This document shows positions 614-64,000 of a stretch of 64,000 nt of DNA, piece by piece. Origin of the DNA: Bacteroidales bacterium (GTDB lineage Bacteria > Bacteroidota > Bacteroidia > Bacteroidales > Marinilabiliaceae); contig JAFYCM010000010.1 in assembly GCA_017539645.1 (NCBI GenBank), positions 24,599 through 88,598 on the forward strand. The letters run 5' to 3'. Both the position numbers and the translations under genes were made by a program. Each line of letters starts with the position of its first letter. Positions within the stretch are counted from its first letter, which is position 1. The notes below the pieces were generated by a model, which worked only from the letters and a program-made list of their open reading frames with translations, was not told the DNA's origin and ran no database searches.

Positions 614-1291
614 CTACTTAGCTCTACCTTTACGCTCTTCCCACACCCTATTCCACTCTCTTTCATTACGCCATTTTATCACTGCACCCATTACGGAGAC
701 ACTTACGACAACTGCCACAACAATCGACACCCACACTTTTCGCGTCAATATTAGTGTGCCTATCCAACCGACGATAAATGCTATCCATCCAAATAGGCAA
801 ACACCGCCCATGACACGATCGTCAATATCCTTCTCTATATCATACACAATCCTACCCGCCGCCTCATTCATAAACATTCCTGCTCGACGAGTATCTATTC
901 TTAGTCGGTTACATAAATACTCCAACTTTGTCGTCTTAGTGCCACGTATTTCCACTATCAGCCAATGATCCTTATACTTTCCTCCTCTTTTTTTTCGCCT
1001 ATACTCAAAATAGCACTTCTCTACATAGCACCACCTAACTATCCATTCATTTGTCTCTATCCCATTCTCGTCTATCCTCAAGAATTCCTTTTCATCATCA
1101 TCCCTGTTCAATATCACCGCAAAGAAGAATCCTAAGAAAACTAAGAATGCAAAAAAATACCACTCATTCAACGCCTTGCCTTGTTCTATCGCCAAAAACA
1201 ATAAAAAGGCAACAGAGACAGCATAGATTACCAAAACCCACCTAACCTCAACTTTCTCTTTCTTCTTGTCAGGCCTAAACTCTAACACCAT
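614..1291 (-). CDS. hypothetical membrane protein with element-derived N-terminal extension
   Basis: No family recognised. From the ATG at 1291 (MVLEFRPDKKKEKVEVRW) the 225-residue product has two hydrophobic segments near its N-terminus, a charged central cytoplasmic-looking part rich in Lys/Arg, then two more hydrophobic segments near residues 165-205 and a basic tail. The frame stays open upstream to 1483 and passes through repeat element A, so starts at 1420 (element-encoded MKVQPNDIANVQG...) or 1483 are possible. I chose 1291 because the start context (acataacaaagATG) is A-rich and the protein-like composition begins there. AT-rich compared with the biosynthetic genes nearby, which suggests accessory DNA. 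Confidence 0.6.
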   Translation of the reverse strand: MVLEFRPDKKKEKVEVRWVLVIYAVSVAFLLFLAIEQGKALNEWYFFAFLVFLGFFFAVILNRDDDEKEFLRIDENGIETNEWIVRWCYVEKCYFEYRRKKRGGKYKDHWLIVEIRGTKTTKLEYLCNRLRIDTRRAGMFMNEAAGRIVYDIEKDIDDRVMGGVCLFGWIAFIVGWIGTLILTRKVWVSIVVAVVVSVSVMGAVIKWRNEREWNRVWEERKGRAK

Positions 1292-1332
1292 CTTTGTTAT
1301 GTCTGTTTCTCGATTATCTTTGGAGACCACCA

Positions 1333-1490
1333 CCCGTTTGGCGTAGCGTTTCGCTACGTCCTGTCTAAACGCAAGGCTCCTGCCTTGCACATTCGCTATA
1401 TCGTTGGGCTGAACTTTCATTTTTGCGCTTTTGTTTCTGCAAGGCTGGAGCCTTGCTATTATATCCGACGTAGGCAGAGACAACGCCGAA
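1333..1490 (-). repeat. dispersed double-hairpin element, copy A
   Basis: Read on the minus strand, this is one of three copies (others at 61965 and 63270). It contains two 18-bp self-complementary cores, 1439-1456 and 1371-1388, which are near reverse complements of each other (GCAAGGCTCCAGCCTTGC and GCAAGGCAGGAGCCTTGC). The linker encodes MKVQ.NDIANVQGRSLAF. The right end has the hairpin CGTAGCG-AAA-CGCTACG and ends AAACGGG. Two inverted half-units make it resemble a BIME-type REP pair. Here the coding frame runs uninterrupted into the downstream membrane-protein gene. Confidence 0.8.
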
Positions 1491-1543
1491 CAAGATGAGG
1501 TTATTCATCTCGACGTAACGTGGCGCCAAATGGGGATTCATTA

Positions 1544-2740: not shown

Positions 2741-3063
2741 GCGCTTGCGTACTTTTCAATGAGTTCATCGGCAACATCGACGCATGTGGGGCAAGGCACG
2801 CCGCTCTCTTTCAATTCTCTACAAGTAAGTGCGCCATTCTTAGCCTCAAACTCACTGATAATCTCATCTTTATGGGTTGGCAATGCGTTGATGGCAGCGA
2901 AGAGCGCGCCACACAAGCCTTCGGGAGCTCGCCCAGCGCTGTAGCCTTTCGACGCTTCTACAAATTCTGGATTATTCGCGAACAACTTATTCCATTTATA
3001 CACAATGCATTGCGCACAGTTGTGGCGATATTCTGGGTGGCGAAATGTTTCCGATGCTTTCAT
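2737..3063 (-). CDS. C_GCAxxG_C_C family (putative redox) protein
   Basis: A 108-residue cytosolic protein with cysteines spaced as in the C_GCAxxG_C_C family (PF09719): HNCAQC near residue 15, GLCGALFAA near 50, CRELKESGVPCPTCV near 81-95. Family members are small, helical, and thought to bind metal or act in redox chemistry, but no member's reaction is firmly known to me. The central motif reads CGALFAA rather than strict GCAxxG, so this is a divergent member. It sits 33 nt after udk and overlaps the flippase-like gene by 4 nt, so the three genes form one minus-strand operon. Confidence 0.75.
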   Translation of the reverse strand: MKASETFRHPEYRHNCAQCIVYKWNKLFANNPEFVEASKGYSAGRAPEGLCGALFAAINALPTHKDEIISEFEAKNGALTCRELKESGVPCPTCVDVADELIEKYASA

Positions 3064-3096
3064 TCCTATACGTATATATGATTATGCTCCGAAGTC

Positions 3097-3714
3097 CTAA
3101 ATCTGGTGGCTGATATTCTTCTTGAAGAAGTGCGATATAACATTGATAGCCTTCTGATTATGACCACCTTGCGGCACAATGATGTCGGCATAACGCTTGG
3201 TAGGTTCGATGAACTGTTCGTGCATAGGCTTGAGAGTCTCGGCGTAGCGTTTCAAAACAGCTTCGGCAGTGCGTCCGCGTTCGGCCATATCGCGAATAAT
3301 TACGCGAGCGAGGCGGTCGTCAGAATCGGCATCGACGAATATTTTGAGATCCATCATATTGCGGAGCTTCTCATCGGTGAGGATAAGTATACCCTCAATA
3401 ATGATTACATCGGCAGGCTCTACGTGTATTGTTTCGGGTAGGCGAGAGCACGTTAGGTATGAATATGTAGGCTGCTCGATGCACTGCCCATTGCGAAGCA
3501 TTTCTACATGTTTTGTAAGCAGCGAAAATTCAATAGATGATGGATGGTCGAAGTTTATCTTCTGACGTTCTTCCATTGGAATGTGGCTGCTATCATAGTA
3601 GTAAGAATCTTGTGGAATGACGGCCACACGCTCGCGGGGGAGCATCTTTACTATTTCCTTCACTACGGTGGTTTTGCCTGAACCTGTGCCACCTGCTATA
3701 CCTACTATAAGCAT
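3097..3714 (-). CDS. udk: uridine kinase
   Basis: A 205-residue kinase of the phosphoribulokinase/uridine kinase family. The P-loop GIAGGTGSGKTT is at residues 5-16, followed by DSYYYDSSHIPMEER (nucleoside site) and NFDHPSSIEF near residue 54, then IIIEGILIL (Walker B region) near 102. It phosphorylates uridine and cytidine to UMP/CMP for pyrimidine salvage in the cytoplasm. Length and motif order match typical Udk, so it is complete. It is the first gene of the minus-strand operon with the C_GCAxxG and flippase-like genes. The start is the first ATG, immediately before MLIVGIAGG. Confidence 0.95.
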   Translation of the reverse strand: MLIVGIAGGTGSGKTTVVKEIVKMLPRERVAVIPQDSYYYDSSHIPMEERQKINFDHPSSIEFSLLTKHVEMLRNGQCIEQPTYSYLTCSRLPETIHVEPADVIIIEGILILTDEKLRNMMDLKIFVDADSDDRLARVIIRDMAERGRTAEAVLKRYAETLKPMHEQFIEPTKRYADIIVPQGGHNQKAINVISHFFKKNISHQI

Positions 3715-61907: not shown

Positions 61908-61964
61908 TATCATACATATTTGAGTTGAATAAATACTAAACAGACAAATGCCAATCTCCCAACG

Positions 61965-62124
61965 CTCGGCGTAGCATCTCGCTACGTCGCATCAGATAGT
62001 AAGGCTCCAACCTTGCAAAAAATAAAGGAACAGCAAAAATGAAAGTGCAAAATGATATAGCAAATGTGCAAGGCAGGAGCCTGGCTTTTAGCTCGGATGT
62101 AGGCGCAGCATACGCCCAAACGGG
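61965..62124 (+). repeat. dispersed double-hairpin element, copy B
   Basis: Same element as copy A. The left outer hairpin is CGTAGC-ATCTC-GCTACG; inner cores lie near 62001-62016 and 62068-62085, each with one substitution relative to copy C. The right end is AAACGGG, where the G-run expands to 11. It lies in the leader of the SH3-domain gene, upstream of which is a full promoter. Confidence 0.8.
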
Positions 62125-62194
62125 GGGGGGGGCCGATTTTGATGTGTTAACTAAAGAATTGGATTTCAGAATAGAGTATTATCATGAAAAATAA
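62039..62194 (+). CDS. element-B leader ORF, 51 aa
   Basis: ATG 62039 in an A-rich context (cagcaaaaatg) opens MKVQNDIANVQGRSLAFSSD, then passes the poly-G tract and stops at TAA 62192-62194, overlapping the SH3-gene start (62184) by 11 nt. The same first 20 codons are kept in copies A and C. No known domain. The conserved start and the overlap suggest a translated leader, but it could equally be a by-product of conserved repeat DNA. Low confidence as a gene, recorded because its position is regular across copies. Confidence 0.35.
   Translation: MKVQNDIANVQGRSLAFSSDVGAAYAQTGGGADFDVLTKELDFRIEYYHEK
62122..62132 (+). repeat. 11-G homopolymer
   Basis: Eleven consecutive G residues at the right boundary of element B, where copies A and C have only GGG. 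It lies inside the leader ORF and 51 nt before the SH3-gene start. Such runs are prone to slippage. Confidence 0.8.
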
Positions 62195-63281
62195 CGTATT
62201 ACTATGCATTTGCCTTACGACATCGCTTTTTGCGCAAGCACAAAAAAAACAAGAAGTTATCGACTTCATTGAAAAATTGCCAACGATAGAATATGGTACT
62301 TTGCCTTATTGGCAAGGTGTGTATGAAAATACAAGTCGTTTCATACATGGATATGATTACCACGAGTATGATACCATAAATTATATTAACAACTATCTAA
62401 TGAAAATAGCATTATGTGATAGTAGTTATGTAATTAATAAAGGCAAGAAAGTTCAAGTCGAGATTGAAAATGTGGAATTTCTCGACAAATTCAATTTTGG
62501 ACAAGGTACATATGTGAAGAATCATGAATGTTTTAGTGCTGCATTCACACCGCCACTTTATGCATCTGCCAAGTCTATATACAAAGACAAATTCTACGTT
62601 GTATATTTTTGGCGCGCTTCTGCAACTGAGAGTATATATTATTATGCTTTAGTTTTTGATTTTTATGGCAATTTACTCTCGTATCAACATTTTGATTATT
62701 GGATGGTTAATCCGCCCGTTTTCCCGTTTTATTCACCAACCAATAAAATACGCAACACTGACTATGCAAAAACAGAGGTTGTATATCTTCCTAACAAATT
62801 GTTGTTGGCCATAGATGTAGATCGAATGTTAGGAGGTGGTTATTATGAGTTGTCATTTCTAAATAAAAATGGACACTACGAAATAATCAAATCGTGGAGT
62901 GAAATTGGCGAGGTGGAAGAGTCCCCCGTGAAAGGTGGCAAATATGTTAATTACGTAGGAGATAATTTCGAAGGCAATAGATTTATGATTCAAATTCCTT
63001 TTGTAGTTCACGATAAAGACGGCTATTCCAATATTCGTACGGAAGCCAATGGTAATGCCAAGATAGTTCGTACAATAAACGATGGCGATATGGTATGGGG
63101 CACGTATTTGGCAAATGGTTGGTGCAAGATTGCATTCACGGCAGACAGCAACGGAAAAATTGTTGAAGGTGGATATATTCATTCGTCAAGACTCGAAAAA
63201 ATTAGCGACCCGTATTATGATGGATTTATCAAACTGTCTTCAAAAGAAGAATGGGAGAAATCTATAAAACGCATCAGATAG
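62184..63281 (+). CDS. secreted SH3-domain protein
   Basis: A 365-residue exported protein with signal peptide MKNNVLLCICLTTSLFAQAQ (cleavage after AQA). The large middle part, rich in Tyr/Phe/Asn, has no recognised family. A bacterial SH3 domain lies near the C-terminus (about 275-345): YSNIRTEANGNAKIVRTINDGDMV, GWCKIAF, and GGYIHSSRL. Such domains bind peptides or glycans. The gene is distinctly AT-rich. Its last codons and stop (GCATCAGATAG) are part of the conserved left end of repeat element C, so the element supplies the stop codon. Confidence 0.75.
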   Translation: MKNNVLLCICLTTSLFAQAQKKQEVIDFIEKLPTIEYGTLPYWQGVYENTSRFIHGYDYHEYDTINYINNYLMKIALCDSSYVINKGKKVQVEIENVEFLDKFNFGQGTYVKNHECFSAAFTPPLYASAKSIYKDKFYVVYFWRASATESIYYYALVFDFYGNLLSYQHFDYWMVNPPVFPFYSPTNKIRNTDYAKTEVVYLPNKLLLAIDVDRMLGGGYYELSFLNKNGHYEIIKSWSEIGEVEESPVKGGKYVNYVGDNFEGNRFMIQIPFVVHDKDGYSNIRTEANGNAKIVRTINDGDMVWGTYLANGWCKIAFTADSNGKIVEGGYIHSSRLEKISDPYYDGFIKLSSKEEWEKSIKRIR

Positions 63282-63401
63282 TAAGGCTCCAGCCTTGCAA
63301 AAACAAAACAGAAAAAATGGAAGTGCAAAATGATATAGCAAATGTGCAAGGCAGGAGCCTTGCTTTTAGCTCGGACGTAGGCGCAGCCTACGGAAAACGG
63401 G
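63270..63401 (+). repeat. dispersed double-hairpin element, copy C
   Basis: Starts within the last codons of the SH3-domain gene (GCATCAGATAGTAAGG). Inner cores at 63283-63298 and 63346-63363 (GCAAGGCAGGAGCCTTGC, a perfect 7-bp hairpin), right outer hairpin CGTAGGC-GCA-GCCTACG, end AAACGGG. The left outer hairpin of copy B is missing. Copies B and C flank the SH3-domain gene in the same orientation. Confidence 0.8.
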
Positions 63402-63454
63402 AGTCTTTGCTAATAAAATGGACAAGACAATTGATTACTTTTTCGTACAAATAA
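63317..63454 (+). CDS. element-C leader ORF, 45 aa
   Basis: ATG 63317 in an A-rich context (cagaaaaaatg) opens MEVQNDIANVQGRSLAFSSD and ends at TAA 63452-63454, 9 nt before the next gene's ATG. It matches the leader ORFs in copies A and B through the element. No domain is recognised. Position suggests translational coupling to the membrane-protein gene; expression is unproven. Confidence 0.35.
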   Translation: MEVQNDIANVQGRSLAFSSDVGAAYGKRESLLIKWTRQLITFSYK

Positions 63455-63463
63455 ATAGACAAA

Positions 63464-64000
63464 ATGTCAAAAAAATCGAATAATGTAAATATTATTATTC
63501 ACGTAATAGGTTGTATACTATCCATATGTGGATGCTTTTATATTCATTCTAATATGAATGTGTTGTGTGTTATATGCTTTGGTGTTTTTGTATATATGTT
63601 GATAAAAACAATTAGTAATGCACCAACATCTCTCTTATTTATGCTTATACCATTGCTTTCGTTAGCATTCGTGTTGGCATATTTTGAAAAACAACAAACA
63701 CAAAAGGAAATAGATTGTTATGGAAGTGTAGTAACTATCGCAATTGTTGAAGATGTGTACAATTATAAAGGAATTCACAGAATAGTTTTTCATTATAAAA
63801 CCATATCTGATCTCACATTACATATGAGTTGTAGTTGCGAACAAGAAATAGTTAGTAATATGCGGATAAACGATACTATATTAATTGAGTATTCTAAGTT
63901 GTCACATGATAGGTTTTTTATTTATAACTATTTTCCTTCCAAAGAGGAAATTTCGAAATACAAAAATGGAGTTCCATACGAACCTAAGAAGAAACAGTAA
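63464..64000 (+). CDS. hypothetical membrane protein
   Basis: A 178-residue protein that ends exactly at the window edge (TAA 63998-64000). Three hydrophobic segments occupy residues about 10-28, 31-48 and 55-72, followed by a soluble domain of about 100 residues with VVTIAIVEDVYNYKGIHRIVFHYKT and NMRINDTILIEYSKLSHDRFFIYNYFPS, which looks like a small beta-rich fold. No family recognised. AT-rich like the SH3-domain gene before it. It follows leader ORF C by 9 nt, so it is probably transcribed with the SH3-domain gene from the 61876 promoter. Confidence 0.65.
   Translation: MSKKSNNVNIIIHVIGCILSICGCFYIHSNMNVLCVICFGVFVYMLIKTISNAPTSLLFMLIPLLSLAFVLAYFEKQQTQKEIDCYGSVVTIAIVEDVYNYKGIHRIVFHYKTISDLTLHMSCSCEQEIVSNMRINDTILIEYSKLSHDRFFIYNYFPSKEEISKYKNGVPYEPKKKQ

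Follow-up and report, generated by a model that had tools for sequence, protein, structure and literature searches.

A Two-Hairpin REP/BIME-Like Repeat of Bacteroidales Whose Half-Units Bracket RAYT Genes in Related Genomes

The DNA analysed here, a 64,000-nt stretch referred to as the window, carries three copies of a repeat that is probably a Bacteroidales REP/BIME (REPIN-like) element; its module would be a half-unit that brackets RAYT genes in relatives, and some of its short inverted pairs would be deleted RAYT units. The repeat has a palindrome with a GTAG foot, many mostly intergenic copies, an arrangement in inverted pairs and compensatory base changes, and a RAYT gene flanked by its units was seen in relatives only.

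Results

Copies of the Repeat in the Window

The three copies claimed in the original prediction, at 1333-1490 (minus strand), 61965-62124 and 63270-63401 (both plus strand), were all found in place and are not due to chance. A 29-nt core had 3 matches in the window against a mean of 0 in 100 shuffles, and all 10 window matches to the 18-nt palindrome (at most 3 mismatches) lie inside the three copies. Outer hairpins had been assigned to every copy; they are present in copies 1 and 2 and in half of copy 3, whose left outer hairpin is lost. An Rfam scan of the window gave 0 matches above the gathering score. Features are listed below in window coordinates, which equal the coordinates on the window's contig (C45) minus 24598; bit scores refer to the covariance model R1 described in the next section.

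614..1420, minus strand: 268-aa ORF with its first codons inside copy 1 (spacer and right half-unit); the true start may be further in
1331..1388, minus strand: right-type half-unit of copy 1, with palindrome GCAAGGCAGGAGCCTTGC, linker, GTAG...CTAC hairpin and outer end CCAAACGGG (R1 match C45:25929-25986, 70.6 bits)
1389..1438, minus strand: spacer of copy 1, holding the ATG of the open frame MKVQPNDIANVQGRSLAF...
1439..1496, plus strand: left-type half-unit of copy 1, inverted (R1 match C45:26037-26094, 64.0 bits)
61959..62016, minus strand: left-type half-unit of copy 2 (R1 match C45:86557-86614, 57.0 bits)
62017..62067, plus strand: spacer of copy 2, with open frame MKVQNDIANVQ...
62068..62125, plus strand: right-type half-unit of copy 2 (R1 match C45:86666-86723, 58.2 bits)
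62184..63281, plus strand: gene of a 365-aa protein, starting 58 bp past copy 2, with a weak SH3_3 match below the cut-off and its stop codon inside the left end of copy 3
63272..63298, minus strand: shortened left half-unit of copy 3, the palindrome and little more (R1 match C45:87870-87896, 20.7 bits, E = 0.011)
63346..63403, plus strand: right-type half-unit of copy 3 (R1 match C45:87944-88001, 71.3 bits)
63464..64000, plus strand: gene of a 178-aa protein, 60 bp past copy 3, with its stop at the final bases of the window and the contig

Proteins resembling the 178-aa protein also come after other copies of the element (L241, L251).

Structure of the Half-Unit

The half-unit of about 58 nt consists of the 18-nt palindrome GCAAGGC-NGGA-GCCTTGC (hairpin 1), a linker, a GTAGNN...NNCTAC hairpin (hairpin 2) and an outer end that is usually GGGG. 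The linker reads TTTTAG... in right-type half-units, and TATTATAT... and variants in left-type ones. A full element in the window's genome (G000) is made of two such half-units, inverted and flanking a spacer of 47-57 nt. The predicted likeness to a REP/BIME pair of inverted half-units was borne out: there are pairs with a short linker, and their structure is kept by compensatory change. An attC-like integron site was considered as a candidate and set aside.

The covariance model R1 was built from an alignment (A2) of 79 half-units chosen by eye from 116 distinct pattern matches, with chance palindromes, truncated copies and near-identical copies left out. Under the two-hairpin structure, which was set beforehand, 90.9% of 1342 cells pair, compared with 81.9% after shuffling and 22-38% with the partners slid. 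Changes on both sides occur at 9 pairs, a number reached by 2 of 500 shuffles, and the covariation score of the alignment is 0.196 versus 0.070 shuffled, with 0 of 500 shuffles as high. The compensatory base changes looked for in the hairpins are strong in hairpin 2, where both sides have changed in 41/79 and 25/79 sequences at its two loop-side pairs; pair 31-51 of the model is unpaired in 52/79. Hairpin 1 is almost invariant, in part because the sequence set was picked by the hairpin 1 sequence. Exact GTAG is found in 71 of the 79 half-units and exact CTAC in 59.

Copy Number and Distribution

The genome-wide count with the covariance model gave at least 76 matches in G000 at E<=1, at least 56 of them at E<=1e-3; these are lower bounds, as 150 of 1645 first-look candidates were scored. 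BLAST listed 43 element matches at E<=1. The half-units are scattered over 21 contigs, and 44 of the 56 overlap no called ORF. Twelve inverted pairs were recognized by distance, and 31 of the 51 half-units outside the window (E<=1e-3) have no inverted mate within 130 bp. Eleven clusters of elements are found no further than about 1.1 kb from where a contig ends: on C45 (window position 64000), C16, C21 (both ends), C22, C29, C39, C49, C61, C69 and C96. Islands with elements look as if they break the assembly.

An exact 24-nt pattern was found in 45 stretches from 18 genomes: Bacteroidales, among them MAGs from rumen and horse faeces, plus a single MAG labelled Spirochaetales. Some of the Bacteroidales genera are known from termite guts. 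R1 matched in 18/18 of these genomes (E<=1e-3), as expected because they had been selected by the pattern, with from 1 to at least 145 half-units each when up to 150 candidates were scored. The richest were G001 (at least 145), G013 (at least 69) and G017 (at least 51). G001 is the MAG labelled Spirochaetales (Gx481_bin132; L031, L042, L058, L071, L073, L074), and its half-units reflect either cross-phylum spread or misbinned contigs. Across the order, where 14 candidates were scored in each genome, at least 27 of 393 genomes were positive for R1 (E<=1e-6).

Half-Units Bracket RAYT Genes in Relatives

A search with the Pfam family Y1_Tnp found one gene in G000 (on C60) and 28 matches in 9 of the 18 pattern-positive genomes. 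R1 matched at E<=1e-3 in 4 of 29 Y1_Tnp loci (L099, L102, L091 and L076); at L099 and L102, where PF01797 scored above the cut-off, half-units lie close by on both sides of the RAYT. The L099 RAYT protein was searched against 19 element-bearing genomes. Seven matched at E<=1e-3, including 5 strong matches; the other 12, among them the richest (G001, G013 and G017, which are draft MAGs), gave no close RAYT at this threshold. Order-wide, RAYTs of the L099 type (E<=1e-30) were found in 74 of 393 genomes. They occur in 19 of 27 half-unit-positive genomes versus 55 of 366 others (p=1.4e-9; with the window's genus excluded, p=1.9e-8), and 8 of the 27 had none at E<=1e-30.

We examined 36 RAYT loci, 30 from the search of the 393 genomes and 6 from the search of the element-bearing genomes; where a locus had no entered end, the RAYT end was taken as start + 540 nt. 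A half-unit (R1, E<=1e-3) lies within 300 bp of 19 of the 24 RAYTs with at least 52% identity to the reference (L099), compared with 3 of the 12 below 52% (p=0.003), and at several loci it is present on one side only. The lower R1 scores at distant RAYTs fit diverged palindromes such as CTTAGGC...GCCTAAG and CGAAGTC...GACTTCG. Two RAYTs that are inside the clade by identity, L178 and L191, are bracketed by GGAATT- or GAATT-type palindromes.

The HUH motif and the tyrosine motif Y-[IL]-x-x-N-P were recognized by pattern at 35 of the 36 loci; at L184, no stop-free frame with this combination was found. Among the 24 closest loci, 18 have W-T rather than W-Q, and the tyrosine motif is mostly Y-I-H-[NQE]-N-P. 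Over the 36 loci, W-T proteins tend to accompany GTAG units and W-Q proteins other palindromes, with L188 and L191 as exceptions.

Inverted Pairs That Retain the Ends of a RAYT Unit

Some inverted pairs in three genomes (G012, G020 and G048) keep RAYT sequence or its immediate flank at both spacer ends, that is, both ends of an autonomous element with the inside missing, as in a MITE; no such remnants were seen in the G237 pair spacer or in the two main spacer types of G000. The spacer of the G012 pair opens like the RAYT start (ATGAGTACAGG...) and closes with the last RAYT codons, the stop and the 3' flank (38/39 nt), and copies of this RAYT 3' end are also present at 8 sites spread over 5 further contigs. 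A 165-nt spacer in G020 joins 70 nt of the RAYT 3' end to 86 nt from just upstream of the RAYT. The same junction is present on contigs C24 and C26, where homology begins with the outer CCCC; on C26, part of the left half-unit is missing and the match ends soon after the right palindrome. G020 also contains two RAYT units, 94% identical and 2.9 kb apart, for which a local duplication is possible. The 275-nt spacer in G048 combines 180 nt of the RAYT 5' part and some flank with 39 nt of the 3' end.

The pair spacer of G237 does not match its own RAYT, and that of G007 aligns with its RAYT over 14 nt only, with a 5' flank that is similar over 21 nt by eye. For G000, an origin of the spacers from RAYT ends was tried and rejected for the two main spacer types, which match at shuffle level; a third type has as its sole match the same module next to the genome's own RAYT. 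The deletion derivatives of G012, G020 and G048 would fit the predicted mobile, non-autonomous nature of the element; the main spacer types of G000 give it no support.

The order of events could also have been reversed, with a RAYT gene inserting into an older inverted REP pair that was moved by other means, so that pairs would not derive from RAYT units. This would agree with the excess of mateless half-units over pairs in G000, with the RAYT loci that have a half-unit on a single side and with the many element-bearing genomes without a close RAYT. Insertion, however, would leave no RAYT remnants inside pairs that lack a RAYT, and the pairs of G012, G020 and G048 hold RAYT coding or immediate flank sequence at both ends, with one deletion junction present on two contigs. 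We regard this order of events as very unlikely.

We favour the RAYT unit as the starting point. Outward-facing half-units would bracket a RAYT gene, predicted to encode a HUH/Y1 single-strand DNA nuclease (TnpA-REP), as in the relatives, and deletion of the inside of this unit would give a short inverted pair, likely in at least three genomes. The G020 deletion product at two sites may represent a miniature non-autonomous derivative. The RAYT presumably cuts and moves half-units on single-stranded DNA. The pairs of G000 could have arisen likewise from a RAYT that has since been lost or has escaped detection; today their spacers match no RAYT end.

RAYT Genes in the Window's Genus

A RAYT had been suggested as the partner gene of the repeat. 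This held in relatives (the 19 of 24 close loci above), but no cognate RAYT was found in G000 or in 14 other genomes of its genus (74-99% complete). Among these 15 genomes, only G000 and SIG108 gave any RAYT match. SIG108 belongs to the same genus, as its genome (G010) shares match coordinates with G333, which is listed there. The only RAYT of G000, on C60, is of a different lineage; it has 42% identity to the query and a W-Q motif, and is bracketed by CGTTCGGATTTGAAATCCGAACG and GAGCGGGATTACAAATCCCGCTC; both SIG108 RAYTs are bracketed by near-identical palindromes. We infer that the cognate RAYT of the GTAG elements in G000 was lost, is absent from the assemblies or serves in trans.

A second family of REP-like palindromes, CGGATTTN..AAATCCG and GGGATT..AATCCC, brackets the RAYTs of the genus (L076/L138 on G000:C60; L137 and L142 in SIG108), and two patterns for this family had no match in the window. 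Two similar 176-aa genes (L252:2408-2938 and 3021-3551) stand in tandem adjoining the element and the RAYT on C60.

Orientation Relative to the Next Gene

All copies had been predicted to point the same way toward the next gene. This is true to a large extent within the genus. Of 33 right-type half-units in G000, 28 face a gene start: 20 do so cleanly, and 8 read into an ORF whose beginning lies inside the element or ahead of it. Another 4 face the end of a gene or an antisense ORF, and 1 lies at a contig edge (p=1.9e-5 assuming independent copies, a doubtful assumption given the related leaders). All 12 paired right half-units face a start, and in the 20 clean cases the start is 4 to 400 bp away. 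The corresponding count in SIG108 is 15 of 18 (p=0.0075), with some loci orthologous to those of G000 and so not independent; 30 of its 32 model matches were used, two partial ones being left out. Outside the genus there is no such bias: the GTAG side of 50 half-units faced a START in 15 and an END in 23 with a 100-aa cut, and a START in 5 and an END in 16 with a 70-aa cut. The bias therefore does not belong to the element family as such.

Unpaired left-type units in G000 displayed no clear bias either (START 6, END 3, antisense 1, edge 1; n=11). A plainer ORF caller applied to left and right units mixed gave START 11, END 10, inside 14 and none 2 (n=37), which indicates that the bias is visible only once the two types are split by linker sequence. 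These counts rest on heuristic ORFs, with ATG ORFs of at least 70 aa added to the calls; the gene caller, trained on typical codon use, missed most of the short AT-rich genes after elements.

Such polarity might suggest a regulatory leader, an attenuator or a terminator/antiterminator hairpin held upstream of genes by selection, as the original prediction had it. The facing of gene starts in G000 and SIG108 would fit, as would the TTTT directly after the palindrome and the folding of copy 2 as a single DNA strand, which is better than that of its shuffles (z -2.8; 1/200 as good). However, terminator-like sites occur at the shuffle rate (1 vs a mean of 0.8), other genomes show no bias and the distance to the start varies a hundredfold in the clean cases. 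Sister genomes also carry different genes after the same half-unit, and a fixed regulon is therefore absent. A leader role is accordingly quite improbable in our judgement; swappable genes that start at the outer end of the element account better for the polarity.

Rickettsia carries in-frame palindromic elements that are coding mobile elements. By analogy, the half-unit could be selected as an N-terminal peptide (Q-G-R-S-L-A-F...), and the consensus right half-unit does have a single open frame (..QGRSLAF..). An in-frame ATG is present in 12 of 21 upstream types in G000, versus 1 and 5 in the other frames, and in 8 of 10 in SIG108, versus 0 and 3; some of the G000 types with this ATG have signal-peptide-like leaders. 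Against a coding role, the count in other genomes is 17 of 46 versus 15 and 10, the in-frame ATG is partly the trivial junction AT|GCAAGG, a separate gene begins past the element in 20 of 33 right units and half-unit copies with a frameshift occur. We hold this explanation to be very improbable.

Gene Exchange at the Outer End of the Half-Unit

The genes after right half-units are AT-rich, with a mean GC of 0.347 (n=25) versus 0.477 for 34 long window genes (p=1.7e-8), although short heuristic ORFs may lean AT-rich. Twenty neighbour proteins scanned singly included one barstar (1.7e-15), one Imm26 (1.1e-9), two ankyrin proteins and one LRR protein, and 12 of the 20 had no family at E<=0.05. 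The barstar homologue (L238:5659-5946) ends 20 bp from a left half-unit, and the Imm26 gene (L240:7008-7478) starts 15 bp past a right one. Upstream of several half-units lies a common Rhs-like start (YGYDACGNRV..., read from translation), and an Rhs-core remnant lies about 1 kb from an element (L234:12354-12614; G000:C55:48347-48541). A link to Rhs was dropped as too thin to claim, as this was the one of three Rhs-core matches in G000 found near an element.

When G000 was compared with SIG108, 8 of the 50 block ends fell no more than 8 bp from a half-unit outer end, against 0.17 expected (0/20000 random draws). This is partly expected because half-units resemble one another and alignments run through to the outer end. 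The count covers 9 of 12 region pairs, without L237/L287 (internal repeats), L248/L292 and L259/L291 and without small repeat blocks inside L238, L240, L253 and L234; block ends at region edges were kept among the 50.

More solid evidence comes from the junctions themselves. At 5 of 10 junctions, identity is 95-97% over the 200 bp leading to the outer end, and in the bases beyond it falls to or near the shuffled level (0.66-0.81 against 0.73-0.75). Three further junctions have 80-89% identity upstream and shuffle level downstream, and two (L243/L284 and L238/L283) are conserved on both sides. At L253/L290, an insert of about 0.9 kb separates the half-unit from a conserved gene in SIG108. Conserved upstream DNA followed by changed or extra DNA downstream implies that genes were swapped or added right past the half-unit.

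These alignments suggest that in this genus the right half-unit often forms the boundary at which conserved upstream DNA gives way to exchangeable AT-rich, immunity-like genes. Since the exchangeable genes would begin at the outer end, the common orientation in this genus would follow. The likeliest route of exchange would be recombination in the shared leader and half-unit, and RAYT action is possible. A bolder version, in which the half-unit is a working exchange site where a RAYT-type HUH nuclease cuts the outer GGGG end and loads immunity genes by one-ended strand transfer (Helitron- or ISCR-like capture), appears unlikely. If true, the repeat would serve interbacterial defence as a platform for cassettes, and RAYTs would act as gene-capture machines instead of only moving small palindromes.

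The exchange at the outer end, the co-oriented short AT-rich genes past right half-units and the barstar and Imm26 among their neighbours could also be expected if the half-unit were the site of a system like rAID (recombinase-associated acquired interbacterial defence), an intergenic motif between co-oriented orphan immunity genes served by a tyrosine recombinase. Yet the half-unit is common to many genomes and brackets RAYTs in some, its G000 copies on 21 contigs form no single array, and there was no recombinase among the 25 of 75 families listed for 62 neighbour proteins, a weak test. A rAID-like system seems a doubtful explanation; exchange at a REP half-unit through recombination in shared sequence is the one we prefer.

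Discussion

The pairs that hold both ends of a RAYT unit, together with a deletion product on two contigs, constitute fossil evidence for a RAYT-unit origin of such pairs. An intact unit, a deletion product and a singlet stand side by side in these genomes, which makes the origin of REPINs directly testable. The abrupt replacement of conserved DNA by swapped immunity-like genes beyond the half-unit's outer end gives a clue to how these genes are distributed in the genus.

The open-access literature gave no description of the two-hairpin family or of RAYT remnants inside pairs; most subscription papers were outside the search, and the comparisons below draw on the portions of each paper available to us. 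The rAID orphan-immunity arrays of Bacteroidales (PMC12247911) are alike in their co-oriented short immunity-like genes and conserved intergenic sequence. In contrast, the intergenic sequence here is a REP half-unit, the cassettes are dispersed and no recombinase was seen in linkage with them (the weak test above). The GTAG/CGTC palindromic repeat families (PMC3733652) share GTAG-tagged stem-loops that occur as singles and dimers. The text available from that study places GTAG families in Proteobacteria, Cyanobacteria, Chloroflexi and the PVC group; for Bacteroidetes and Spirochaetes it names CGTC families only, and it describes no two-hairpin unit, whereas here a two-hairpin GTAG unit is found in Bacteroidales.

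Among the TnpA-REP subclasses, judged from motifs alone, subclass 2.6 (PMC6006769) is alike in its Bacteroidetes hosts, the HUH motif N-H-[ILV]-H and Y-I-H-[QN]-N-P. The accessible part of that report gives it atypical structures without GT[AG]G; the proteins here with a 2.6-like tyrosine motif mostly go with GTAG double-foot units or diverged versions, and GTAG is present in the flanks of L135, L136, L176, L177 and others. Subclass 2.4 (PMC6006769) resembles our units in the GTAG plus CTAC double foot. Its proteins are defined by Y-I-x-N-N-P and W-Q; among the 24 closest loci here, 18 have W-T and most have Y-I-H-[NQE]-N-P.

The nearest relatives are the REP/BIME (REPIN) elements and RAYTs of E. 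coli and Pseudomonas (PMC3116915, PMC8266576), which, as far as the consulted portions go, share the inverted palindromic pair, the GTAG foot, the short linker, the mostly intergenic singlets and pairs and the Y1 HUH gene bracketed by units. Those portions raise a RAYT-unit origin of pairs as a possibility (PMC3116915, PMC8266576), and present REPIN origin and past RAYT-gene mobility as open questions (PMC3116915; PMC8266576). They describe tnpAREP as mostly single copy with 'no evidence of tnpAREP mobility' (PMC8266576, PMC3116915), in contrast to the two 94%-identical RAYT units of G020. The Bacteroidales element differs further in having two conserved hairpins per half-unit at a near-fixed distance and pair spacers that in three genomes keep RAYT ends. 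It is ordinary in kind, a REP/BIME with RAYT, and new as a variant.
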